Shown: piece by piece, positions 2,374 to 58,109 of the stretch
Layout of the letters: the number at the start of each line of letters is the position of its first letter
Position numbering within the stretch: position 1 is the first letter of the stretch
Source: Candidatus Methanorbis basalitermitum
GTDB lineage: Archaea > Halobacteriota > Methanomicrobia > Methanomicrobiales > Methanocorpusculaceae
Reading direction: 5' to 3'
NCBI GenBank assembly: GCA_031287415.1
Contig: JAITSY010000019.1
Span: 1-64,000, forward strand
Length of the DNA stretch: 64,000 bases
Made by a program: the position numbers and the translations under genes
The notes under the pieces: model-generated
Seen by the model: only the letters and a program-made list of their open reading frames with translations
Told to the model about the DNA's origin: nothing
The model's database searches: none

Positions 2374-2500
2374 TGATGGGCTTTTGTTTTATTACATATA
2401 AATTACGAGTGTTAGACACACATACCATATATATCTAATTATATAGACAGTTATATTTCATATTTGAAAAATTGGGCCCATTCAAACAGATAATTCGGTT
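2374..2500 (+). repeat. Family A dispersed repeat copy 1 (divergent)
   Basis: tatagacagttatatttcatatttgaaaaattgggcccattcaaacagataattcgg. Confidence 0.8.
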
Positions 2501-3868: not shown

Positions 3869-4046
3869 GTGTGTCTACCCATTGGCATCGTCCAGTCTCA
3901 CTTTCAGGTGTGCAAAGACGTACCCAATCAGGGAAAAAACACTGACAAGCTCATTACCATTGAGATCTATCCTGAGTATTCCGACGGATTGTTAGGCCTT
4001 GCCAAGGGGGACGCGATATTCATCCCCTACTGGTTTGCGTGGAATT
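3869..4046 (+). pseudogene. Truncated TrmO/TsaA-like (UPF0066) fragment
   Basis: PIGIVQSHFQ...ITIEIYPEYSDGLLGLAKGDAIFIPYWF matches the N-terminal half of TsaA/TrmO, then runs into a repeat (family C). Confidence 0.7.
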
Positions 4047-4124
4047 GTTGCATGGCAGCGAAACCCGCTGACCTGCAACGCTGCATACCGTCGACTGGGT
4101 CGGCGTAATCTCTAAGGCGTGCAG
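4047..4124 (+). repeat. Family C REP-like GC-rich repeat
   Basis: ttgcatggcagcgaaacccgctg...gtcggcgtaatctctaaggcgtgcagc. Confidence 0.65.
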
Positions 4125-5084: not shown

Positions 5085-5190
5085 TCACACCACTTTTTTT
5101 AAACAGTCAGCCGGCATCAGCTCCTGCGTCATCATAACCATGCGATTCAGCGGGGGTAACTATCATCATCTGCCTGCTGCTTAGAAATAC

Positions 5191-5300
5191 GGACTTATTG
5201 GTTTTAGTGAAAAAATATAATTGTTTCGCCGTTCTCTGCCAATATAGACAGCTATATTTCAGATTTGAAGAACTGTTCCCATTCAAACAGATAATTCCGA
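5191..5300 (+). repeat. Family A copy 2
   Basis: ggacttattggttttagtg...atagacagctatatttcagatttgaagaactgttcccattcaaacagataattccg. Confidence 0.9.
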
Positions 5301-5306
5301 AATATT

Positions 5307-5921
5307 TTAGAGAATTTTCTGGGTGAAGGCGACTGAGCCGGAGATTCGGGTGATCCGCACCTTGATGTTCTGTCCAGCTTTGGTTCCGGAGACATACAGA
5401 ATATACTTTCCAACGTGGGCAACACCGTCACCTTTTTTGCTGATAGAGTCTATGTGGACCTCAAGTTCTTTGCCTTCCTCAATTACCGGTCTCTGTATTT
5501 CTGTTTTTACTTTACGTTTTCTGATTGGACGCTTCGATCCGCATGCCTCGCAGAGAAGCATCAGGACGCGGTCATCTTTGACAAGTTTGGTGTCCGGACG
5601 GCTGCACTCGGAACAAATCACGTAATCATTCACGTATGTGGTGACAATCGCTTCAAACTGCGTCTCTTCAAATTTGCCGTTGAAGACCGCACGGCTACCG
5701 TCGATCTTTCCGGCAGTTCCAAGTTCGCCTAAGATGAACTTCATGAAGTGATCTGGATCGCGATTGAGCGAATCGGCAATGTCCGCGAAATTATCCAAAA
5801 CCGTCGTTTTTCCCTCGAAATAGATCTTGGCTTTGGGCATGACAAATCGTTCACCAGTGTCCGTCGGCTCGGACATCCCTGCGTATGCTGACTTCAGCAT
5901 ATTCTCGTATGAGTCAACCAT
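5307..5921 (-). CDS. translation initiation factor aIF-2 subunit beta with C-terminal TRAM domain
   Basis: eIF2B/5 zinc ribbon CSEC..C..C and C-terminal GKELEVHIDSISKKGDGVAHVGKYILYV TRAM-like segment. Confidence 0.9.
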   Translation of the reverse strand: MVDSYENMLKSAYAGMSEPTDTGERFVMPKAKIYFEGKTTVLDNFADIADSLNRDPDHFMKFILGELGTAGKIDGSRAVFNGKFEETQFEAIVTTYVNDYVICSECSRPDTKLVKDDRVLMLLCEACGSKRPIRKRKVKTEIQRPVIEEGKELEVHIDSISKKGDGVAHVGKYILYVSGTKAGQNIKVRITRISGSVAFTQKIL

Positions 5922-6117
5922 AGGTTATACTTTGGTGCCGAGACCATAAAATTCTGGTGTTGTAAAGCGTATGCTGCTGTTCTCCAAAAAAGTTAGCTCG
6001 TTTTTCAAAACATCTTGCATCGCCAAGAGAAATCCACTAAGAATCAGATGAATCGTTGCCATGCAACTCCAAAAAAGATATGAGGGCAGAAATTTCAAGG
6101 TTCTGTCTGCTGGAAAC

Positions 6118-7374
6118 CTACTCTTTGAACACATTATCAAAGATCATGTCAGATCCCGTGGCGTTCAGACGTGCCCGTTCTTCCCCCTCTTCGGCATAAG
6201 AAAGCACCGGCAGGGTCATGTCGTAGCCAGGTTTGTGACCGAACATCTTCTCCAGCTCCACCTGCTGAGCATGCATGAAAAGCGCATTTGGAATGTCCAT
6301 CGGACACAGTTCCTGACACTGGCCGCAGTTGATGCAGGAGTCTGCGATATGGGCAAACCGGATTAAGTGGAACATGAAGTCTGGCGGGACCTGATCGGGC
6401 CGCACCAGATGTGGTTTTGCCGTGGAACATTCCACACAGTAGCAGACAGGACAGTTTTCGATACAGGCGCGACAGGCAATGCAGCGGGACGACAGCTTCA
6501 TGATCTTCTCCAGCCGCTCACGGCCGGTTCCAAGCTCTGCAAACTGATGGGCACGGTAACGCTCACCAAGTTTCAGCATCGCATTTTCCACTTTACCGCG
6601 GATCTCAAGACCCTTCGGTTCCGGGACACAGGTCGCAACCGCTCCGACGCTGACCGCCGAGTCAAGAAGAGCCGCACCCTTCTCGGAACAGATCTCGACA
6701 AACGTTGCCTTGCCTGCCTTCTCGCCGAACACCCCCCAGTTTCCGCAGGCGAGATCCGCCTGCCGAGGGACCTTGCATTTGCAACGCTGGCAGTTTAGAC
6801 GGCGGCCATAGCCCTCCGGTTCCTCTTCAAGTTTTTCGATGGAAATGCCCTTGTGCTGGTGGGCACCGTTTTCATCGGTGTACTCAATGATGAATTGTCC
6901 CTTGTCAATCTCCTCTTTAAAGACTGCGTCCGGGCTGACCCCATACTTTTCTGCAATCATCTCGCGGGCGATAATTGGCGAGACGGTTCCTCCGCAGTTA
7001 AGGCCAATCAGAATCACATTGTCAAGGTTGATCTGCTGGCGTTTCGCAAGCTCATAGAACGCCATCGCATCGCAGCCTTTTACGGGGACTGCAACTTTCA
7101 TTTCCTTTGCACCACCGAGATATTTCTTCACCATCTTCGCGGACAACAAAGTTCCGCAGTGCAACGAACCCGCGGATTTGGGCATTTCGGCAGGATCAGT
7201 GATCAGTTTGAGTTTTGCGTCGTAAAGATCTGCACCACGGCAGACCGCAAGAACTCCGTCAACCATACCACTTGCAAGCGCATGCTGCAGAAGGGAGGTA
7301 ACCGCTCCGCCGCATTCGCCTTTAATGTCGCAGGACGTGGTCCATGCATATACCATATCGCCTTTTGATGTCAT
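6118..7374 (-). CDS. fdhB: formate dehydrogenase beta subunit (FdhB / FrhB-type with ferredoxin domain)
   Basis: FrhB/FdhB domain and two C-terminal 4Fe-4S motifs (CIACRACIENCP, CINCGQCQELCP). Confidence 0.88.
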   Translation of the reverse strand: MTSKGDMVYAWTTSCDIKGECGGAVTSLLQHALASGMVDGVLAVCRGADLYDAKLKLITDPAEMPKSAGSLHCGTLLSAKMVKKYLGGAKEMKVAVPVKGCDAMAFYELAKRQQINLDNVILIGLNCGGTVSPIIAREMIAEKYGVSPDAVFKEEIDKGQFIIEYTDENGAHQHKGISIEKLEEEPEGYGRRLNCQRCKCKVPRQADLACGNWGVFGEKAGKATFVEICSEKGAALLDSAVSVGAVATCVPEPKGLEIRGKVENAMLKLGERYRAHQFAELGTGRERLEKIMKLSSRCIACRACIENCPVCYCVECSTAKPHLVRPDQVPPDFMFHLIRFAHIADSCINCGQCQELCPMDIPNALFMHAQQVELEKMFGHKPGYDMTLPVLSYAEEGEERARLNATGSDMIFDNVFKE

Positions 7375-7376
7375 GT

Positions 7377-8546
7377 TCAGGCCTCCTTGATGAATGCGCC
7401 CTCGGGCTTTTCTATCTCTTCATAAACGATTTGGCCATAAGCTGGAACGGCTGCTACAAGATCGGCAAAGATCTTTGCCTTGTCCTCCCAGGCGTATTTG
7501 CCATCTGCGAGCAGGCTGATGATCTCACACGGGCATTTGGCCCCCCCCGGTGCGGCGGAGGCCGCACGAACCTTCTGTACGCGACCTTCCCAGCTGGTGA
7601 CGGTACCAGGATACTCATTTGAGGCAGCTGCCGGAAGCACGACGGTCGCGGCATCGGATATATAGGTCGCGTTACTGGCGACGGCCACGATCAGTTCAAG
7701 GTTTGCGAGTGACGGCATGAGGGTAGCGTAGATGTCCTCCTCCATCTCTGGGGTTTCAGTGATGATAAACAGAGCTTTGGTCTTTTCACCAAGCACAAAC
7801 GAACCGAGGCCAAGGGCGGTAGCGGCGCGGCCATTGTTGGTATCATACAGGATGGCTGTCTTTGCTGAAAGTCTTGCAGCGATCGCGGAGGCAGCCGCAT
7901 CATTTGCGAGATAGGCGACGACCGGGTTTTTCGCTGCCGCAATCGCATCGGCAAGCTCGGTCGGGAGTTCAGTATACTCATCGGCAATCACGACAACGTC
8001 AGCCTGAACCGCCGTATAGGACTGCGGGCCGAGGTAGAGCAGTTTGCCCCCGTTTTTCTGCACGTGATAGAGTTTGTTGCCGGTTATCGGGAGCTTTTTC
8101 ATGACATCGCCGATGAGAAGCACGACATCGGCTTTGCCGAAATCGACGATCTTTGCGGTGGACGCGCCAGTACCGCCATAAACAATGCCAATATTTGCCG
8201 CACCAAGGATCTCGCGAGCGAAGCTTGCCACAAGGAACATTGCCTCATTTGTCAGGCGTGAAGAGATCGCAACGGCAATCTCATCGCCCTGGTAATTTGC
8301 AATTTTTTTCGCCTCGGCAATTGCCGCATCCCATTCCACCGGCTGACCACCGATAAGAGGTTCTTCGATCCGCCACTCGGCAAGCGCTGCTGCTGCGTGC
8401 AAGCCGCGGGTACAAAGTTTGCCAGATCCAACCGGGGAGCGGTGGTACGGGGCAACACCAACGGCTTTGCCATCCATCACAATGAGATTGAGGCCACATC
8501 CCGTCCCGCAGTAGGGACAGATAGTCGTTACATATTTCAGTTCCAT
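7377..8546 (-). CDS. short FdhA-like molybdopterin oxidoreductase (389 aa)
   Basis: N-terminal CPYCGTGCGLNL...KLCTRG [4Fe-4S] motif; adjacent to fdhB; much shorter than canonical FdhA. Confidence 0.8.
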   Translation of the reverse strand: MELKYVTTICPYCGTGCGLNLIVMDGKAVGVAPYHRSPVGSGKLCTRGLHAAAALAEWRIEEPLIGGQPVEWDAAIAEAKKIANYQGDEIAVAISSRLTNEAMFLVASFAREILGAANIGIVYGGTGASTAKIVDFGKADVVLLIGDVMKKLPITGNKLYHVQKNGGKLLYLGPQSYTAVQADVVVIADEYTELPTELADAIAAAKNPVVAYLANDAAASAIAARLSAKTAILYDTNNGRAATALGLGSFVLGEKTKALFIITETPEMEEDIYATLMPSLANLELIVAVASNATYISDAATVVLPAAASNEYPGTVTSWEGRVQKVRAASAAPGGAKCPCEIISLLADGKYAWEDKAKIFADLVAAVPAYGQIVYEEIEKPEGAFIKEA

Positions 8547-8749
8547 GATTATCCATAGAAATTTCGATGACGTCAGTATATAATAATGATGTTAAATTAA
8601 CTCAGATAACATGTGTTTTTGATGATTATCAGTGGATTTGTAAACACCATGCAGTTTACCCGGATTTATTGATTGTTGGTGACAGCTTACGGCGCGCATT
8701 TCGCACATTTGCTGCAGGCCCCGTGGGGAAGGCTGCAGACGGAACGTTT

Positions 8750-8873
8750 GCAGCGTTGCACATGTTCTACGTGCAACCACTGCACACCGCCCCGGCACCC
8801 CAAGGCCAAGCCTTGCTTGCTGTTTGCACAGATATGCCGACGTGACCTCTAATCAGAGGCATGCAGCATCAGC
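8750..8873 (+). repeat. Family C REP-like repeat
   Basis: gcagcgttgcacatgttctacgtgcaaccactgcacacc...aaggccaagccttgcttgctgtttgcacagatatgccgacgtgacctctaatcagaggcatgcagc. Confidence 0.7.
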
Positions 8874-9098
8874 AGAGGCACGGAGGCCGCGTCATCAAAG
8901 CGGGACACGCCGGGGCTTTGCCGTGTTTCTGACACCTGCCTTGCTACTTTAGGACGATACATTCCTATATATCTAAGCACGACAAATAAGAGTGGTGCAG
9001 TTTCGTCTGCATGAGTTATCTGTGCAATCAGCTTCAATAACTGATATGTGCAGACTCATGGACACGGGACTTTATCCCGGGTTCATGGAGCTATCAAC

Positions 9099-9284
9099 AT
9101 GGAAAGAAGAAATTCATACGGCGGATCCCGCCACTACAACGACGCGCCCCACGAAATGACCAAGGCAATCTGTTCAGATTGCGGGAAAGAGTGCGAAGTT
9201 CCGTTCAAACCAACCGAGGGAAGACCGGTTTACTGCCGCGACTGCCTCCCAAAGTACAGAGCGCCGCGTACGCCTCGGTACTAA
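9099..9284 (+). CDS. small CXXC zinc-ribbon protein
   Basis: MERRNSYGGSRHYNDAPHEMTKAICSDCGKECEVPFKPTEGRPVYCRDCLPKYR; paired CxxC. Confidence 0.8.
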   Translation: MERRNSYGGSRHYNDAPHEMTKAICSDCGKECEVPFKPTEGRPVYCRDCLPKYRAPRTPRY

Positions 9285-9330
9285 AGAAATAATGCAGCGG
9301 AGAAAATTCCGCTTTGATCTTTTTTGATAA

Positions 9331-9398
9331 GGCTAAGCCTTGTCTGCTGCTTGCGCAAATGTGCTGGCATAACCTCTACCAAAGAGGCGTGCAGCAAT
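9331..9398 (+). repeat. Family C REP-like repeat
   Basis: aaggctaagccttgtctgctgcttgcgcaaatgtgctggcataacctctaccaaagaggcgtgcagc. Confidence 0.7.
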
Positions 9399-9522
9399 AG
9401 AAAATGGACTTATGATTAAGTAGAAATATATAAATACATCTTAATCCACCATAGATAGAGATAATTGATATTTCAGGTTTGAAGAATAGTTCCCACTCAA
9501 ACTGATAATTCCGATGGAAAAT
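9397..9522 (+). mobile_element. Family A copy 3 with near-perfect flanking repeat (atagaaaat / atggaaaat)
   Basis: ggacttatgattaag...tttcaggtttgaagaatagttcccactcaaactgataattccg. Confidence 0.75.
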
Positions 9523-9561
9523 AGCATATATCATCTGTAGAGACTAATACAAGAAATAACG

Positions 9562-10200
9562 ATGTACTTCCACGCCCTGATCCCTTATAAACCGATCAAC
9601 CCCAAAACCCGCCTCTCTTCCGTCATGACCCAGGGGGAACGTGAGGAGTTTGCAGAGGTAATGCTTGGCGATGTCATTTCTGCCGTCCGCAAAACAGGTT
9701 GTGAGGCAACTCTTCTCTGTACCACCAGATACGCCTGCATCGAAACACGCGTCGCCATCCGCAAAGAGGGGCTGAATGAAGCAATCAATTGGGCACTTCC
9801 GCAGTTCCGTTGCCCAGCACTCATCATTATGTCCGACCTGCCCCTGATCACACCCGAAAGCCTGCGGAGGATACTCTCCACCAAGGCGGACATGGCAATC
9901 GTTCCGGGACTAGGTGGCGGAACCAATGTCATCTTTGTCAAGCACCCAGAGACGTTCCATGTGGAATACTATGGGTTCTCGTTTCGCAGACATCTGCAGA
10001 TTGCAGATGAACTCGGCCTCAACGTTGATATCGTCGATTCCATGCGGATGGCAACTGATATAGACGAACCCGTCGATCTCGTCGAACTGATGATTCACGG
10101 CCGCGGCAACGCCCGGGAATGGCTTTACGAACATGGATTTTCCCTCTCAATCGAAAATGGCCGCACAAGCGTTACCCGCAACGGCGAAAAACTCTCCTGA
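9562..10200 (+). CDS. cofC: 2-phospho-L-lactate guanylyltransferase (coenzyme F420 biosynthesis)
   Basis: MYFHALIPYKPINPKTRLSSVM...LIIMSDLPLI...GLGGGTNVIF. Confidence 0.9.
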   Translation: MYFHALIPYKPINPKTRLSSVMTQGEREEFAEVMLGDVISAVRKTGCEATLLCTTRYACIETRVAIRKEGLNEAINWALPQFRCPALIIMSDLPLITPESLRRILSTKADMAIVPGLGGGTNVIFVKHPETFHVEYYGFSFRRHLQIADELGLNVDIVDSMRMATDIDEPVDLVELMIHGRGNAREWLYEHGFSLSIENGRTSVTRNGEKLS

Positions 10201-10361
10201 AACGAGAGCGGGGAACAGAACACTCGCCATCTTAAAGGTCACGGCCTTCGATGATATTGATGGAGTACGGAGATATCACATTTAAATAATAGAATAAAAG
10301 ATACTGGGTTTGATCAGAGCCACAACCATGCCTTAAACCAGATATCTTACCCGGTATTGCC

Positions 10362-11100
10362 TCACCTCAACGTCAGTTCATGGGATCCAAGTCCGCTGCC
10401 AGAGAGAACCGCACATATCCCTCTCGACCGAGGATGTTCTTCCATTGCCCCCCTCAATACGCGTACTTGTCTGCCCAGAGCCGTATGGGCCCGTATACGA
10501 CCGGACCCCGTCGCGCTTGCCTTTGCCACGATCATAGCTCTCCGTTGAAAAAGGGATGGTATCGCTATTTTCCAGGAAGCCCTGGGACTAATATGCCATA
10601 TATGATGATACGCATCCCCCTTCCCCGAACGACCCCACATAGTCTATCTCCAAGCTTTAGCCAAAATATCCACTTGAATTTCTTTTGGATGGTCAGGATG
10701 CTAAATGGTTATCGTTCCGTACGTGTTCTTTGCACCAAGGTAAGTGTACATTTTCGTAGAGTCCCACAGCAACCAGGTATCATAGCGGATTTCCGATTTT
10801 GACAGAGCGTGCCATCCACCGACAACCTCTTTCCCATCGATTACGTCTATTTCGCGGTACTTGAGTCCATAAACAAAATAATAGGTATGATCTTTAGGCC
10901 CTAACCCCTGCCAAAAACCAAATTGCCAGGAGCTCCATATTTAGACTCACCCAGTCTCCAGCCCTCAATGTCGACGTGAATTTTATCTTTGAGAACAAGC
11001 TGCAGCTAGTAACTACAGCAATTAGGGAAGTAAGAAAGTAATTTCAGGATCGCTGGCTTGCCATCTGGCATGCGACAGGTAATAGTTGGTAGGTTGTGTC
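10362..11100 (-). pseudogene. Decayed gene remnants, unassigned
   Basis: Reverse strand gives protein-like pieces in changing frames (e.g. YYFVYGLKYREIDVIDGKEVVGGWHALSKSEIRYDTWLLWDSTKMYTYLGAKNTYGTI) with no intact ORF. Confidence 0.45.
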
Positions 11101-11103
11101 TGG

Positions 11104-11233
11104 TAATAATATTTCGAAACAATCAGTCTGAATGGGAACTGTTCTTCAAATCTAAAATATAACAGTCTATATTAATAGAACTGAGAAACACATATATATT
11201 ACCTATAAAACAAATAGGGCCATAATAATTTTC
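11104..11233 (-). mobile_element. Family A copy 4 with flanking repeat (taataatatttc / taataattttc)
   Basis: gaaacaatcagtctgaatgggaactgttcttcaaatctaaaatataacagtctatattaatag. Confidence 0.75.
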
Positions 11234-11285
11234 AAGTTTGTTGCGAGAGAAAGTAAGTTAAATCTAAGATACAGATCATCTTATT
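11228..11285 (+). repeat. Family B repeat copy 2
   Basis: attttcaagtttgttgcgagagaaagtaagttaaatctaagatacagatcatctta. Confidence 0.75.
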
Positions 11286-11674
11286 AAAAGACATAATTCC
11301 ATTTGATTACCAGCGTGTACTCTTGGTAAGCAGGGCTCATTCCGTATTAGACCTATCTTTCCATAATACAGCAGCATCCACGACATCTTCGATGGTCTTG
11401 TACTGCGTCAAGATAGTAAACTCCCGAAATGCAGGGAAGTTCTTCTTTGTAGAAAGCTGCGTTGATACCTCAATTGAGGTATCGCTACTCGGTGTTGTTC
11501 CTCTCCACGCATACCATGATGGCTGAAGCAGTAGTATTCCAATTGGCGGTCCCGTAACTCATGCCTATACTACATCTATTTATTGGAAATAATCAACCAT
11601 AAAATCGATGAAAAGATTATCAGACAATTCACGCTTCGAGAGAGGTGTTTCCAAAAAATGCGATTGAACGCCTC

Positions 11675-12676
11675 TCAGGGACAGTTCCTGTCCCTGCAGT
11701 CCGCACGTACATGCGGCGTACCCGCCAATGCCAGACCAGCACTGTTTTTTTTTGCAAACCGCCTGAGTACTGCGGTCACGCCACTCCCATACTGCATGGC
11801 TTTTTTTGGTTTCCACGCAAGATCATCCAGCAGATACATTTCGGCTACTTTTCTGAGGGCGATTTTTCTCCAATCGCCATTAACAAGTTCGCCGGCGGCG
11901 AATTTATGGGAGGCCAGCACAACGCGTTCATCCATGTAGGGCATGGAGTACCAGACACCGGAGAGTCCAGCGGCGACCGAATCACGGGCACGCTGGGCAG
12001 CAAGTCCGCGGAAGTCAACATCGAGATCGGCCCGGAGGTTTTGGCTTCTGCCATAGCGGGCGTAGCCGCCAAAGAGTTCGTCGGCTGCTTGTCCGGTGAG
12101 AACCTGCTTCGCCCCGCATCTGGCGGCGGCTTTGCCGATAAAATATCCAGCAAGGCCGATTTCGAGGTTCATCCTGGCTGTATCTGGAAGCGCTGCACGG
12201 AGAAGCGGAAGCGCTTCTTCGAGGTCTGCCTCGGTAATTTCGTACGTTGTGAGGGAAAGATCGAGCCGATCGGCGGCGTCTGTTGCGGCTTCGAGGTCAT
12301 GGAAGCCGGCGAGGCCGACGACGATGCAGGGAAGATCGGCAAGAACGGCAATGAGAGTGGAGTCAACGCCGCCAGAGAGGGCAACGACCGCAGATTCTCT
12401 GCGGCCGTCACATCGCAGCCGAACAGCATCCCGGATGGCGTCTTCGAGGCTGAGGTCAGGCACGTCCGGCATGATGGGAATCACCTGGCCACCGATGCGG
12501 ATGATGCCCGAAGGTGTCCCACCTGGCATGATGCCGTAGCGGTCGCGGGCAGTGAGATGATCGGTTGATAGACAGAACTCACCGCCGCAGCGGCTGAGTC
12601 GCTCCGGAGTAATGTTTTCGATCTCGGCTGGTGTGAGGAGATGACCGTTTTCCTCGATCCAGCCGCAAAGTTGCAT
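11675..12676 (-). CDS. asparagine synthase-like protein
   Basis: ALSGGVDSTLIAVLADLP PP-loop, TGQAADELFGGYARY; start placed at MQLCGWIEENG. Confidence 0.88.
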   Translation of the reverse strand: MQLCGWIEENGHLLTPAEIENITPERLSRCGGEFCLSTDHLTARDRYGIMPGGTPSGIIRIGGQVIPIMPDVPDLSLEDAIRDAVRLRCDGRRESAVVALSGGVDSTLIAVLADLPCIVVGLAGFHDLEAATDAADRLDLSLTTYEITEADLEEALPLLRAALPDTARMNLEIGLAGYFIGKAAARCGAKQVLTGQAADELFGGYARYGRSQNLRADLDVDFRGLAAQRARDSVAAGLSGVWYSMPYMDERVVLASHKFAAGELVNGDWRKIALRKVAEMYLLDDLAWKPKKAMQYGSGVTAVLRRFAKKNSAGLALAGTPHVRADCRDRNCP

Positions 12677-12677
12677 T

Positions 12678-13004
12678 TTAGGACCCCTGGGAGATGACGT
12701 CAAGCTCGTCCCGAATGTAACTGCGGACCATCTTTTCGAGTTGACCGAGGACTTTTGATGCGACCTGCTGTTTGGCGAGCCGTCCGTCATACAGAGACCA
12801 ACGTGCCGGATGCTCCGCATTCCACTTCTCAGCAATAACGGTCAGACCGCACTGTTTTGCGGCGCGTGCAACCTGTACAAGGCTCGACGAAACAATGGCA
12901 AGGACCTTTGTCACGCACCGTCCCTCGGGTCGCGTCAGTTCTGCATGAAAACAACAGGGGCAAAGAAAACGAATCGTCATTGGTAGAGCAACACTATTAA
13001 ACAT
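12678..13004 (-). CDS. conserved-looking hypothetical protein upstream of asnB-like gene (possible start MTIRFL at 12980)
   Basis: Intact ORF ending 1 nt before the asnB-like start; FLCPCCF cysteine motif. Confidence 0.6.
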   Translation of the reverse strand: MFNSVALPMTIRFLCPCCFHAELTRPEGRCVTKVLAIVSSSLVQVARAAKQCGLTVIAEKWNAEHPARWSLYDGRLAKQQVASKVLGQLEKMVRSYIRDELDVISQGS

Positions 13005-13143
13005 GAAAATTTATAAGGTAAGTGTACCTTTATAATCGCTATACAGCCCAGATGAATGGTTCACCCACATATGGACATCCTCCTTGTGTTAATCAAGAAC
13101 ATTGTGACCCACGAGCTCGCCTGAAATAACCGTAATCCCTTCT

Positions 13144-13742
13144 TTACACACCTCCTAAGATACTGTTTAACATTTGTGTATCTTCCAATCGCATATTCTG
13201 ATCATCCAGCTTTGTAACTACAGCGCGCACACGCCCCGATGAACGTTTCTTCACACCAACGACTGGGGCCTTCGTTGTCCCCCTGCCACGCTTCCGCTTC
13301 ATGTCTTTGTCTTTTGGTGGTTTTCCACCCAATACATTTCACCAATCTCTGCGATAGCTTCAAACATCTTTCTCTCTTGCTCATATCCCATTGCCGTTCT
13401 AATCAGCTTCAGCATTCTCCAAGCGCATTTATATGTAACGCCGGTCTCTCTCTGCAATTGCCGTCCAGAAATGCCTTTTTTTCCGTTTAACTTGGCATTG
13501 ATGGCATAAAACCACATCCTCATGCTGGTTGATGAGTTCTCGAAAATCGTCCCCCTCATCACAGAAAAGTGATTATTACACCGTTTGCAAGCATAATGTT
13601 TGGGTTTACCCAGTTCTTGATAAAGTAGATGCTTTTCCCCACAATGCGGGCATACCATACCATCGGGATACTGAATGTTGATGAAGTAAGCTATGGCCGC
13701 AGCGTCATTCGGGAAAAATTCCTCAAAATCTTTGTAAAGCAT
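13144..13742 (-). pseudogene. IS1595-family (ISXO2-like) transposase, frameshifted and 3'-truncated
   Basis: MLYKDFEEFFPNDAAAIAYFINIQYPDGMVCPHCGEKHLLYQ...; continues out of frame as MGGKPPKDKDMKRKRGRGTTKAPVVGVKKRSSGRVRAVV; DDE C-terminus missing. Confidence 0.85.
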
Positions 13743-13841
13743 TATACATTATTATTAGACTCCAAAGATATTAAAATATTACCCACAGGTGGGATCTTAC
13801 GGGTAATAATTTATCCTCAAAACACTAAATGACACAACTTT

Positions 13842-15215
13842 ATGGTCCGAAAGGGGAATGCTGTTACTGAGGGAAGTATCATCAAAGCCCTTCTCATCGT
13901 CGCCATCCCAATCGTCATCAGTAACATACTGCAGAGCGTTCTTGAAGTGGTGGACATGTACTTCATCGGCCAGCTTGGAGAGGATGCGATTGCCGGCGGG
14001 ACGATGAGTATCTCTATCATCATGTTTTTAACTACTGTACTGTTCGGGATAGGTGTCGCCTGCGCCGCACTTACATCCCATGCCTACGGTTCAGAGCGGT
14101 ATGAGCGGATTTCGGTAATCCTTGCGCATGCACTCTATCTATCCCTTATCGTCTCCGCCGCAATAGCAGTTATCGGATTTTTCTGGTCTGAAGACCTTCT
14201 CCTTCTTCTCGGAGCAGATCCAGGGGTTCTTACAGAAGGCAGCAAGTTCCTTCGCCCGACTCTCGTTGGTCTGTTTGTCATGATCATGTTATCGGTCCTT
14301 GTCATCGCGTTCCAGAGCAGCGGCGACTCGCGCACCCCTATGTATGCGATGGTTGCTGTAAATATCTTCAACATTGTTCTCAATCCGACCCTGATTCAGG
14401 GTATGGCAGGTCTTCCAGCATTCGGCATTGCGGGTTCTGCATATGCATCCATCATCTCACGGAGTATCGGCATAATTTTGTTGCTTGCGGTCATTTATCT
14501 TCACCCTGCATTCCGGAACACCCCAGTACGACTGCCGAAAAAATGGACGTTCGAACCGCAGCTCATCAAAGAGATTGTCTGCATTGCAGTCCCGAGTGCC
14601 ATTCAGGGTGGGGTTCGAAGTTTCGGATTTCTAATGATGACCTCGATTATCACCATCTTCTATGGCATGGCAGCAGTTGCCGCCTATGGCATCTCCATTC
14701 GTCTGGACATGCTTGGCTTCATCGTCGCGATGGGACTCTGTGCTGCAATCACTGTCATGGTCGGCCAGAACCTCGGTGCGGGAAAAGTTGAGCGTGCGGA
14801 ATTGTCCATCAAGTACGCGGTAATCCTCAACGCGATCTTTATGGCCTGCATTGCGATCAGTTACTACTCTCACGCAGGCGATTTGCTTGCATTCTTCGGT
14901 GCGGAGGGAGGCGCCCTCAATGACAGCATTCTCTTTATGCACATCATCCCCCCCTTCTCCTACGTTATCATTGCCGTGGCCATGACTCTCGGATTTGCCA
15001 TGAATGGGGCAGGCGTGACGAGACCGGGCATGTACTCGGCCATTGCCGGACAGATATTTACGCAGGTCGTTCTTGCGGCATTCTTCGCGCATCTTGGGTA
15101 TCCGATTGAGTACATCTGGTATGCCATCGTCTATGGTTCGGTGGTGACGTTCTTCTGCGACCTGTTCTTCTACCACAAAGGCGACTGGAAGAGGAAACAG
15201 CTGGACATTGGCTGA
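13842..15215 (+). CDS. MATE family efflux transporter
   Basis: 457 aa, 12-TM MATE-type sequence (PIVISNILQSVLEVVDMYFIGQLG). Confidence 0.9.
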   Translation: MVRKGNAVTEGSIIKALLIVAIPIVISNILQSVLEVVDMYFIGQLGEDAIAGGTMSISIIMFLTTVLFGIGVACAALTSHAYGSERYERISVILAHALYLSLIVSAAIAVIGFFWSEDLLLLLGADPGVLTEGSKFLRPTLVGLFVMIMLSVLVIAFQSSGDSRTPMYAMVAVNIFNIVLNPTLIQGMAGLPAFGIAGSAYASIISRSIGIILLLAVIYLHPAFRNTPVRLPKKWTFEPQLIKEIVCIAVPSAIQGGVRSFGFLMMTSIITIFYGMAAVAAYGISIRLDMLGFIVAMGLCAAITVMVGQNLGAGKVERAELSIKYAVILNAIFMACIAISYYSHAGDLLAFFGAEGGALNDSILFMHIIPPFSYVIIAVAMTLGFAMNGAGVTRPGMYSAIAGQIFTQVVLAAFFAHLGYPIEYIWYAIVYGSVVTFFCDLFFYHKGDWKRKQLDIG

Positions 15216-15385
15216 AATCTCAGAAAAAAGCACTAGATAATTTGCGTATAAGATTGGGGACGAGGTCACTGTTATGTTTGGCACCGGCAAATCATGCCTC
15301 GCTCGCAAAAAGTCAGCCTTGCAGGACACTAAGAAAAAAGGGATGAAGGTGTTCTTTGATATAGGTTCCCCCACCATACTGTTGC

Positions 15386-16381
15386 ATGCATAAGGCGCAG
15401 TTGTTCTCGTTCGATGGTGATGCGGTCATCTGCCGGGTCTGTTCGCAAAACTGCCGCATTACCAGGGGATCCAGAGGATTTTGTAACGTCCGGGAAAACG
15501 TAGACGGTACGCTGTATGCAAAAAGCTATGGCCGCCTGACTGCTGCAGGCGTGGATCCGATTGAAAAAAAACCGTTGTATCATTATTTACCGGGAACACA
15601 GACATTTTCGGTGAGCAGCTACGGCTGCAACTTCACCTGCCGCCACTGCCAAAACTATATGCTGTCACATGTTCGGGAGACGCCCGCACCGTTCATCCCT
15701 CCGGAATGGGTAATCGAAGAAGCAGAAGCAACGCGGTGCCGCAGCATCTCGTTTACGTACAATGAGCCATCTATCTCCTTTGAGTATGTTTTGGATACGC
15801 TCCGTCTAGCTGTTGCGGCGGGTCTTGGTTCGGCGTTTATTACCAATGGCTATCTGAGCGAGGAAGCATTTCGTGAACTCTCCCCGTATCTTGGTGCATT
15901 CCGTGTGGATCTGAAGGCGTTTTTCGATGCCTTTTATCAGAAGGTTTGTGGTGCACGGATTGCTCCGGTACTTGAGACGATTCTTCTTGCAAAAGACCTT
16001 GGGGTTCACCTGGAACTGGTGACGCTTGTCATCCCAGGTTATAATGACAGTGCCGAAGAGATCAACAGGATGCTTGCGTGGGAGACGGAGCATCTCGGCC
16101 CCACTGTTCCGCATCATTTCACGCAGTTTTCTCCGATGTATCAGATGGAACACGAAGAACCGACATCGAAAGCGACACTCAACCGAATTTTTGCCCAGGC
16201 AAAGCTGAACGGGCTGTACTATCCCTACATAGGGAACATCATGCATGCCGCAGGGTCGCAGACTCTGTGCCCCGCATGCGGGGAGCTGATCATCCTTCGG
16301 GTAGGGTATGTTGCAAAGACGCCGGGACTTTCCAAGGGACGGTGCAAAAACTGCGGCAGACCGTTTGACGGAGTTCTGTAG
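15386..16381 (+). CDS. amrS: AmmeMemoRadiSam-system radical SAM enzyme (AmrS-like)
   Basis: YGCNFTCRHCQNYMLSH CxxxCxxC radical SAM motif; GFCNVREN; C-terminal zinc ribbon. Confidence 0.85.
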   Translation: MHKAQLFSFDGDAVICRVCSQNCRITRGSRGFCNVRENVDGTLYAKSYGRLTAAGVDPIEKKPLYHYLPGTQTFSVSSYGCNFTCRHCQNYMLSHVRETPAPFIPPEWVIEEAEATRCRSISFTYNEPSISFEYVLDTLRLAVAAGLGSAFITNGYLSEEAFRELSPYLGAFRVDLKAFFDAFYQKVCGARIAPVLETILLAKDLGVHLELVTLVIPGYNDSAEEINRMLAWETEHLGPTVPHHFTQFSPMYQMEHEEPTSKATLNRIFAQAKLNGLYYPYIGNIMHAAGSQTLCPACGELIILRVGYVAKTPGLSKGRCKNCGRPFDGVL

Positions 16382-16514
16382 TTGCATGCCAGCGGGGGTT
16401 CCGTTGCCCTGCGAATGATAGCTGCGTTACTGTGCAGAATAGCGCCACAAAAAGCTCCTGAGAAGGTCCATGTATACACATCTTCCAAAAAAATTACAGA
16501 ATTATGCCATTTTG

Positions 16515-16575
16515 AGAGAGTATATGTATCTAATGTCAATCTACTTTTTTCTCGCAACACACTTGAAAAAAAGAC
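16515..16575 (-). repeat. Family B repeat copy 3
   Basis: Reverse complement ttttttcaagtgtgttgcgagaaaaaagtagattgacattagatacatatactc. Confidence 0.7.
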
Positions 16576-16631
16576 AATATGAACAATAAATAAACAACTC
16601 TTGGAAATAAGATAATCTAATGAATAGATTA

Positions 16632-16745
16632 CTGACGTATCGGTTTTGGGAATAATATATAAAATAGTTCGTGAGTCCCTATTGGTATAGATTGTTATAT
16701 TTCAGATTTGAAGAACAACCCCTATTCAAACAGATAGTTTTGTAG
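16632..16745 (+). repeat. Family A copy 5
   Basis: tattggtatagattgttatatttcagatttgaagaacaacccctattcaaacagatag. Confidence 0.85.
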
Positions 16746-20935: not shown

Positions 20936-21046
20936 CGGAATTATCAGTTTGAATGGGAACTGTTCTTCAAATCTGAAATATAACTGTCTATATCAATAGA
21001 GAACTACGAAATAGATATATATCTCTATTAAGACAGGTGAGTCCAT
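20936..21046 (-). repeat. Family A copy 6
   Basis: ggaattatcagtttgaatgggaactgttcttcaaatctgaaatataactgtctatatcaatagag. Confidence 0.9.
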
Positions 21047-21295: not shown

Positions 21296-21470
21296 ATATA
21301 AAAAATCATTTCGATAATTATTCCAACAAAAGGAACCCAGCAACGGGACAAACATCTCGCCAAAGCTGCAAGCATTCCGCTTGCAGCGTTGCAGGGAATC
21401 GGGTTCCGCTACCATGCAACTATAGCAATTCGTCTGAAACTTCATATCTTGTGCCGCGAAATACGTATTT

Positions 21471-32319: not shown

Positions 32320-32930
32320 GATATGCATTCATCGATGCTGTTACCGTTCCTGCCGCTGCTGACTGCGCAGACGGACCTTTCGCACTTCGGTATGGGGCTG
32401 ATTGTAACTGAGGTGTAACGTAACCTCGTCGGTGCTGCAGTCTTTTATCGAACCGGTATGGAGATCGGACAAGTGTGCCGCTGTGCCTGGCGATCGGTAG
32501 CGTGGGCATCGATCTCACAGCAGTTTCCGAGAACTATCTTCGTTTGCTGTTTTCTGCGGTGGGAGCAAGTATTGGCCATGCTCTATTCCACCCAACGACG
32601 ATGGATATATATATATATATTCAGCTAAGTCCGTCCGGAAAGTAGGGTATAATATAACACTACGAAATTATCAGTTTGAATGGGAACTGTTCTTCAAATC
32701 TGAAATATAACAGTCAATGTCAATAGAGATCGAAAAAAGATACACATTATCACTAAAACCGATAAATCCATAAGAGGATCTGATACAACGAGTGGAAGCA
32801 TCGGTTATGCGATTGGGTCAATGCTGACAGGTATCCGGATTTATGGCCGGAGGTTTTCCGGCGGCTACATGGCTGATGATTCCGAGTATTGTGGGGGAGG
32901 CATGGATGCACAAGAACAACCAGCGGTTCT
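32320..32930 (+). pseudogene. Decayed fosmidomycin-resistance-like MFS transporter, interrupted by a family A repeat
   Basis: MLLPFLPLLTAQTDLSHFGMGLIVTEV / SVLQSF / VGASIGHALFHPTT in shifting frames before, and SGSIGYAIGSMLTG after, the repeat at 32663-32771. Confidence 0.6.
32663..32771 (-). mobile_element. Family A copy 7, inside decayed MFS gene
   Basis: gaaattatcagtttgaatgggaactgttcttcaaatctgaaatataacagtc...cactaaaaccgataaatcc. Confidence 0.8.
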
Positions 32931-34531: not shown

Positions 34532-34662
34532 AATATTTTTCCGATTTACCAATTTTAGTGATAAAATATAAACAGCTCTCCGATCTCTATTGATATAGAC
34601 AGTTATATTTCAGATTTGAAGAACAGTTCCCATTCAAACAGATAATTCCGAATATTTTTCCG
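34532..34662 (+). mobile_element. Family A copy 8 with perfect 12-bp direct repeats (aatatttttccg)
   Basis: Direct repeats at 34532-34543 and 34651-34662 flank a ~107-bp unit. Confidence 0.85.
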
Positions 34663-34720
34663 TCATCTTTCATTCGTAGAAAAAATATACTTATTTGTAT
34701 CAGCGCCAAATATCTGATAC

Positions 34721-43036: not shown

Positions 43037-43180
43037 GAAAGCTGCGTTCCATTACTGCCCACTTGTCTGAAAACCCGAAATGCGTGTATCTGGGTTGAAT
43101 CCTGCAAAATGCAGGACAATACAGTGATAGTTGAAGAGATTTTGTGGTGTGTGTAGAATAGTAAACACCAATGAAGAAAA

Positions 43181-43244
43181 GTTGCATAGCAACGGAGCCC
43201 ACTGTCCTGCAATGCACGGCACACCTCCATCAGAGGTGTGCAGC
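43181..43244 (+). repeat. Family C REP-like repeat
   Basis: gttgcatagcaacggagcccactgtcctgcaatgcacggcacacctccatcagaggtgtgcagc. Confidence 0.7.
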
Positions 43245-43292
43245 AGATCCAAGATGATCCTAACGCACAGTGAAGCACTATCCAAAAAAAAG

Positions 43293-48390: not shown

Positions 48391-48517
48391 ATATGAAAAT
48401 GGACTTTTGATCTTAGTGAGAATATATGACTGATTCTTCGAGACTCTATTGATATAGACGGTTACATTTCAAATTTGAAGAACTGCTCCCATTCAACTAA
48501 TGATTCCATATGAAAAT
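48391..48517 (+). mobile_element. Family A copy 9 with perfect 10-bp direct repeats (atatgaaaat)
   Basis: Direct repeats at 48391-48400 and 48508-48517 flank a 107-bp unit. Confidence 0.85.
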
Positions 48518-54424: not shown

Positions 54425-54489
54425 ATGAATAAACGTTGTGATGATATTGGCAATAAACATGAATGCCAGTTCCCCTGCACTGGTTTACA

Positions 54490-54554
54490 AGTTGTATGGC
54501 AGCGGAACCCGCTGCCATGCAATGCACGGCACACACCTATCAGAGGCGTGCAGC
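54490..54554 (+). repeat. Family C REP-like repeat
   Basis: gttgtatggcagcggaacccgctgccatgcaatgcacggcacacacctatcagaggcgtgcagc. Confidence 0.7.
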
Positions 54555-54589
54555 AACTCCCAAGTGGGAAGCGTTAACAACCCAGCGAA

Positions 54590-56653: not shown

Positions 56654-56695
56654 CGGACTTACCAATTTTGATAGTAATATATATAATATCGGATT
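56654..56695 (+). repeat. Family A left-end fragment next to IS1595-type remnant
   Basis: ggacttaccaattttgatagtaatatatataatatcgg resembles the left part of copy 8. Confidence 0.5.
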
Positions 56696-56741
56696 GACAC
56701 CTTAAAACGCTAATAATAGATACATTTGAAGTTCAATATTA

Positions 56742-57580
56742 ATGGAGAATATTATACAAAGAATTTGAGGCAATGTTTCCCACGGATGAAGATGCAATTA
56801 ACCACTTCATCGATATCCCATACCCGGATGGCATTGTATGCCCACATTGCAGTGCAACGAAGAAGGTGTACCGCAGGAAAGGTAAACCCCAAAGATCTTC
56901 GTATGCATGAATTGCAAAAATACGTTTTTGGTGTTTAAAGGCACCATTTGAAGACTCGCAAACATCAATGAAAATGTGGTTTTACGCTATTAATGCGATG
57001 TTGAACGGAAAGAAGAGGATTTCCAACAGGCAGTTACAAAGAGAGACCGATGTCAGATATAAATGTTCTTGGAGAATGCTAAATCGAATCCGTACGGCTA
57101 TGGGGAATGAACAAAAGAGAGAGATGTTTGAGGCTATCGTAGAGGTAGATGAAACATATGTGGGTGGAAAACCATCCATAGACAAAGATAAGAAAAGAAA
57201 GCGAGGAAGAGGGACGATGAAAATTCCCGTAGTTGGTGTAAAGGAGCGTTCTTCGGGGCGTATGCGCGCTGTGGTAGCTAAGAAAGACAGTCAGAATAAA
57301 ACGTTGACCGGTCGACAACTGATTGGGATAATTCGGCAGGCGTGCAAAGCAAAGACTACGGTTATCGCTGACGAGTTTCCAGGATATAGAATTCTTGATA
57401 AACATAAGGAGTGTGCCCATCTGTAGGTGAATCACTCATTAGGGCAGTACAGCGATCACAAGAAAACACACACCAATGGTATAGAATCTGTATGGGCACT
57501 AATAAAAAAGGCGTTTATGGAGTGTATCACTACATTTCAGTGAAGTATATGAAGAAGTATATTGAGGAGTTCTGCTTTTG
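56742..57580 (+). pseudogene. IS1595-family (ISXO2-like) transposase, multiply disrupted
   Basis: LYKEFEAMFPTDEDAINHFIDIPYPDGIVCPHCSATKKVYRRKGKPQRSS, frameshift, then MKMWFYAINAMLNGKK...ADEFPGYRILDKHKECAHL*, stop, then VNHSLGQYSDHKKTHTNGIESVWALIKKAF. Confidence 0.88.
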
Positions 57581-58109
57581 ACTAATAATAGGGAAAACGG
57601 GGGTGTATTTGATACGCTGTTAAGACAATGTATCCTGACTCAGATATCATCTGCATTTTAGATGTTAAAGAATAGCGATTGGAATAATTTTAAAAACAAA
57701 TCATCTCATTCATTTATAACTCTTCCAAATGCATGCAATGCAATATTATATATGATGTTATTTTAATTGTGACACGATTAAATTCCTTGATTGGTTTGAA
57801 TAATTTAAAAAGGCTAAATTCTAGCTTATTTCACTAATACTGATATCACTATATCATCACACGGAAACGCACGCGGTGTTTCCGTGTGATAAATTGTGTG
57901 TTCTTATTTCACTCAGTATTTAGAATGCAGTTCTCAGGATACATTTACCAATGAACTTAAACTCACGGAGCAACTCGCGTTCATCGTGATGATAGTCCAT
58001 TGTGTGTTCAATCGTGCGCTTGCTTAATCCCGCATGGGGATCATCAGTCTTTGCTGCGTTCACCCATGCAATACTGTCTGCGCAGTCAAGCTGCGCTGCC
58101 GCTTCTGGT

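Follow-up and report, generated by a model that had tools for sequence, protein, structure and literature searches.

A dispersed MITE family in Candidatus Methanorbis basalitermitum, its probable IS1595-family source and the uneven decay of its two halves

The genome of the gut methanogen Candidatus Methanorbis basalitermitum carries a dispersed, non-coding repeat of ~110 bp that has no gene of its own. The repeats very probably constitute a MITE family that arose by internal deletion of an IS1595-family insertion sequence (IS) and was moved by the IS transposase into A|WWnnnnWW|T targets. This reading draws on (i) the ends of the repeat, (ii) its duplication and target, (iii) empty sites in relatives, (iv) collinearity with the IS and (v) confinement of both MITE and IS to this genome within the genus, all of them apparent from the sequence. 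A first-pass annotation of the window (the whole 64-kb stretch of DNA analyzed here) had already proposed a MITE, and the inverted-repeat ends, the duplications above control, the empty sites and the lineage-specific amplification bear this out. Its statement that no autonomous partner is visible needs correction, as an IS1595-family element is present in the form of decayed copies, and the window contains two of these.

Nine MITE copies and fragments lie in the window (Table 1), and the repeat was found at every place where it had been annotated. At 2374-2500, however, only the right part of the copy survives, and what had been taken for a fragment at 56654-56695 belongs to an IS1595-family IS, of which it forms the left end, and not to a MITE. 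A profile search of the window and ~400 kb of further stretches found ~40 copies in 464 kb, which extrapolates to ~100 in the 1.16 Mb of assembly sequence searched (74% complete); over this 1.16 Mb, the best query returned 107 candidates and, among them, 40 scored matches. With one mismatch allowed, the assembly contains 154 instances of a 14-base end motif, GGANTTATCNGTTT, compared with two of the reversed control motif. The genome-wide search advocated by the first-pass annotation gives ~100 copies here, and 24 further genomes of the genus contain none; by sequence search, the MITE is absent from all 40 relatives examined, and it has no match in viral contigs, plasmids or phages. The host belongs to the Methanocorpusculum group, its S8e protein being 91% identical to that of M. 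petauri, and the amplification is specific to its lineage.

Table 1. Positions of MITE copies, target duplications and IS1595-family remnants in the window
Feature	Position	Strand	Evidence
Right-half remnant of MITE copy	2425-2496	+	
MITE copy, left end of relocated block	5190-5299	+	Synteny in relatives
MITE copy, duplication TAGAAAAT/TGGAAAAT	9405-9513	+	
MITE copy	11116-11222	-	
Second IS1595-family transposase remnant	13035-13800	-	
MITE copy, right end of same relocated block (5190-16742)	16632-16742	+	Synteny in relatives
MITE copy	20936-21046	-	
MITE copy	32663-32771	-	
Left target duplication AATATTTTT of 34541 copy	34532-34540	+	Empty site
MITE copy, 110 bp, between ribosomal protein S8e gene and SRP19-like gene	34541-34650	+	Empty site in four relatives
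Right target duplication AATATTTTT of 34541 copy	34651-34659	+	Empty site
MITE copy, perfect 8-bp duplication TATGAAAA at 48392-48399 and 48509-48516, flanked by A and T	48400-48508	+	Gap-free empty site, four relatives
Decayed IS1595-family insertion sequence	56654-57631	+	PF12762, NF033547 above cut-off; left end and 5' region collinear with MITE

All 36 copies usable for an analysis of gene context lie between genes as predicted by a simple script, one of them overlapping a doubtful short prediction. Such placement would be expected of an element that is purged from genes. These copies are balanced in orientation, with no preferred strand, and tandem, convergent and divergent spacers hold them approximately in proportion to their occurrence. 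The gene context shows no bias and gives no sign of a role towards neighboring genes.

An alignment of 48 copies with their flanks defines ends of the form YGGACTTATC...GATAATTCCR, or YGGACTTATCGGTTTTAGTG...CATTCAAACTGATAATTCCR when the ~110 bp are written end to end. The ends are inverted repeats, as had been noted, and match at 19 of 24 positions in the consensus. The flanks are A/T-rich over eight positions on each side and then fall to background; this richness is confined to the interval between an A at -10 (35 of 48 copies) and a T at +9 (34 of 48). A palindromic A|WWnnnnWW|T with an 8-bp duplication describes the target. Left and right 8-mers match at six or more of eight positions in 11 of the 48 copies, against 2.7 expected, and none of 2000 random re-pairings reached this number. 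When the register is allowed to move by one base, 11 copies match at seven or more positions, against 2.4 expected and a maximum of eight in 1000 re-pairings. The register was picked from the data, 24 having been tried, and was the sole strong one (z 4.3). Tabulated in this way, the flanking direct repeats stand well above the re-pairing control, although most copies have lost a recognizable duplication; the best copy (34541) retains 9 bp and the copy at 48400 exactly 8 bp. A few copies seemed on inspection to have inverted-repeat flanks, but the full set of copies gives no such signal.

The empty orthologous sites that the first-pass annotation had recommended looking for exist for two copies, the comparison being with four relatives rather than with conspecific strains. 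In the spacer between the S8e and SRP19-like genes, homology to the four relatives ends at 34540 and picks up again at 34682; their spacers measure 73-77 bp and, at the junction, read AAATATTTTTTTC or nearly so. At 48400, the window minus the element and one TATGAAAA aligns without a gap across the duplication to all four relatives. These empty sites confirm insertion at 34541 and 48400.

The partner transposase scores 79.8 bits against PF12762 (DDE_Tnp_IS1595; cut-off 27) and 143 bits against NF033547 (NCBIfam, IS1595 family transposase; cut-off 75). PF12762 has 15 matches in this genome and none in 24 congeners, the same distribution as the MITE. Every transposase copy seen in the 74%-complete assembly is broken, and no intact IS1595 copy was seen in it. 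Four IS copies carry MITE ends: the one at 56654 in the window, which begins at a left end common to the MITE, contains a transposase remnant at ~56740-57600 and yielded no clear right end, and those at loci L133, L139 and L141. The L133 copy is the only one with both ends; its right end lies ~600 bp past the transposase stop and matches the MITE in the outer ~14 bases only. The two transposase remnants in the window share ~70% DNA identity.

The MITE consensus aligns to the 5' regions of seven of nine IS copies, with z values of 4.4 to 8.3 above shuffles. At L133, the collinearity begins at the very first base of the end, extends for ~100 bp and crosses the transposase start, where ATG TTA TAC AAA AAA TTT GAG GCG TTG TTC CC in the IS corresponds to CNG TTA TAT TTC AGA TTT GAA GAA CNG TTC CC in the MITE. 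The MITE thus comprises the first ~90 bp of the IS, with the left end, a promoter-like region and the first ~11 transposase codons, followed by ~20 bp of the right end. The MITE is best read as the IS minus its middle portion. Two points count against this reading: every IS copy compared with the MITE is decayed, and at L133 the right end agrees with it only in the outermost bases.

The nearest transposase outside this genome, among the collections searched, is that of the Treponema succinifaciens plasmid pTRESU01, which is 53% identical across 97% of the query. The archaeal relatives found in the order and phylum are less similar, their matched segments showing 31-52% identity, and viral contigs contain no close relatives of the transposase. 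The pTRESU01 element is likewise from the gut and the closest found, but unlike the present IS it is bacterial; gain of the IS from a gut bacterium is possible. An end finder did not identify the ends of the Treponema and Megaera IS1595 elements.

A course consistent with these findings can be outlined. Internal deletion of an IS1595-family IS would have left the left end, the promoter-like region and ~11 codons joined to ~20 bp of the right end. The IS-encoded transposase would have recognized the MITE ends and moved copies in trans, with insertion into A|WWnnnnWW|T targets giving duplications of 8 bp and sometimes 9 bp. Decay of the transposase genes would then have ended the burst. The copies show little substructure and are nearly star-like in their relationships. 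With no two copies closer than 9% and every transposase seen broken, the burst is old and gives no sign of continuing.

Recombination between MITE copies may later have rearranged the chromosome. The window up to 5189 and from 16743 onwards are neighbors in four relatives, whereas here the two points lie 11.3 kb apart, with a MITE in the same orientation at each end of the intervening block (5190-5299 and 16632-16742). The outer flanks of these two copies pair as TAGAAATA/TAGGAAAA at six of eight positions, compared with three of eight for each copy's own flank pair. The block from 5190 to 16742 fits recombination between MITE copies. Its inner sequences lie on other contigs in the relatives, which makes its history more complex than one event.

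Several other repeats were noticed. At locus L125 (G000:C13:21975-22025), a palindrome of ~50 bp consists of two MITE right ends face to face, TGGAATTATCAGTTTGAATAG...ATTCAAACTGATAATTCCG, a still shorter derivative; the end motifs at G000:C15:23223-23268 have a similar spacing. A short repeat, GGAATGATACCATAACTA, occurs at L118 (G000:C27:83990-84045), at L120 (G000:C30:102) and at position 100 of the window, once as an inverted pair, and in several cases directly adjoins MITE or IS1595 copies. A G+C-richer dispersed family, AAGTTGCATAGCAACGGAGCCCACTG...GGCACACCTC, is unrelated to the MITE and is found in the window at 4044-4085, 21382-21423, 43179-43250 and 54489-54560.

Two other origins for the family have to be weighed against deletion of an IS1595-family element. 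Duplications of 9-12 bp, as read in the first-pass annotation, would suit a MITE of some other IS family, for example of the IS4 or IS231 type, and one perfect 12-bp repeat (34532-34543 and 34651-34662) does bracket the copy at 34541. That repeat exists as described, but its target portion is limited to the first 9 bp, AATATTTTT, as the AAATATTTTTTTC of the empty site indicates; the extra three bases belong to the element's own end. The register over 48 copies is 8 bp, or 9 at most, in an A/T-rich target, and a matching IS1595 partner exists, which makes another IS family a very improbable source. The annotation had set IS1595 aside on the ground that its duplications are usually ~8 bp; the duplications are in fact 8 bp, the ends are common to MITE and IS, and the MITE interior comes from the start of the transposase gene. 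More improbable still is a regulatory or non-coding RNA family that belongs to the host, is fixed and was never mobile, even though all copies are intergenic and the + strand consensus folds strongly (z -3.3). The fold follows from the inverted-repeat ends; a structured RNA was rejected, as covariation is absent and G.U pairs are in excess only at two fixed columns, and Rfam finds nothing but tRNAs in the window, with no match to the MITE. A host RNA is also at odds with the absence of the family from 24 congeners and with ends and an interior common to an IS1595 element, and it is already refuted by the base-accurate empty sites with duplications. The first-pass annotation would have favored such an element had copies kept a conserved syntenic position with no duplications beyond chance; instead, duplications exceed chance and sites are empty in relatives.

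The two halves of the MITE have decayed unequally, which raises a different question, namely whether part of a dead element has since been kept. Divergence from the consensus is 22% in the left 44 bp and 6% in the right 66 bp (three variable sites being left out of the latter figure), and the direction holds in 46 of 48 copies. The step falls near position 44, and the two inverted ends are affected unequally; divergence in the right half, even with its end counted in, is 3.5 times lower than in the left. Plain decay of a dead MITE does not explain the low divergence of the right half. Search ascertainment was rejected as the cause, since 27 of 29 matches found with the left half only carry a right half as well, the other two being an IS end and one other place. 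Given nearly star-like copies whose closest pair is 9% apart, the difference would have arisen after insertion, and the target duplications are eroded at least as much as the left half. Halves of equal age together with eroded duplications point to a putative constraint on the right half after insertion. Within the left half, a TATA-like stretch (positions 23-30) diverges by 11%, against 25% for the rest. In the right half, three sites at the centers of AACNGTT-like motifs vary freely and their surroundings do not, as expected of putative protein-binding sites.

These observations argue for an element that began as a MITE and had its right 66 bp later kept by selection in most copies, for example as a place where a chromosomal protein binds or as the source of a small RNA transcribed from the former transposase promoter. 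Set against them are the absence of any preferred orientation or position relative to genes and an arm pairing that lacks compensatory changes: RNAalifold gives six pairs, none compensatory, and, leaving aside two fixed G.T columns, A.C mismatches occur as often as G.U. There is also no Rfam match, and congeners live without the MITE. On balance, we regard such retention as unlikely. Slightly less likely again is the fuller proposal, in which the host would have kept the right 66 bp of most of the ~100 copies by purifying selection and so turned a promoter-proximal region and gene start into putative binding sites or small transcripts throughout the genome of one methanogen species.

Deletion of an IS1595-family element, the preferred origin, can be compared with known systems. 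The bacterial ERIC and REP repeats are palindromic, intergenic, ~100 bp long and present in many copies, and the MITE resembles them in all four respects. It differs from them in its 8-bp duplications and IS1595 partner, whereas ERIC and REP repeats are associated with other partners or with none known. A closer parallel is the ISHwa6 (IS1595) MITE of Haloquadratum walsbyi, with 165 bp, seven copies and 8-bp duplications (PMC3852290). Both are archaeal, non-coding and multi-copy, with an IS1595-family partner, inverted-repeat ends and 8-bp duplications, but the present family is shorter (~110 bp) and has ~100 old, diverged copies. A/T-rich 8-bp duplications are also reported for the IS1595 element ISApl4 (PMC12561309), which shares short inverted repeats and, by annotation, the transposase family. 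ISApl4 ends in GGGGCTGTACTAGA, in contrast to CGGAATTATCNGTT here, and encodes a transposase, which the MITE does not.

IS1595-type MITEs are already known in archaea as a kind, and the present family is a further member. It is archaeal, old, dense and specific to one lineage; its IS1595 partner has been identified, two of its insertions have empty sites placed to the base, and two copies mark the boundary of a rearrangement. The uneven decay of the two halves is what deserves a specialist's attention, and it offers a way to test whether the host has adopted a dead transposon.
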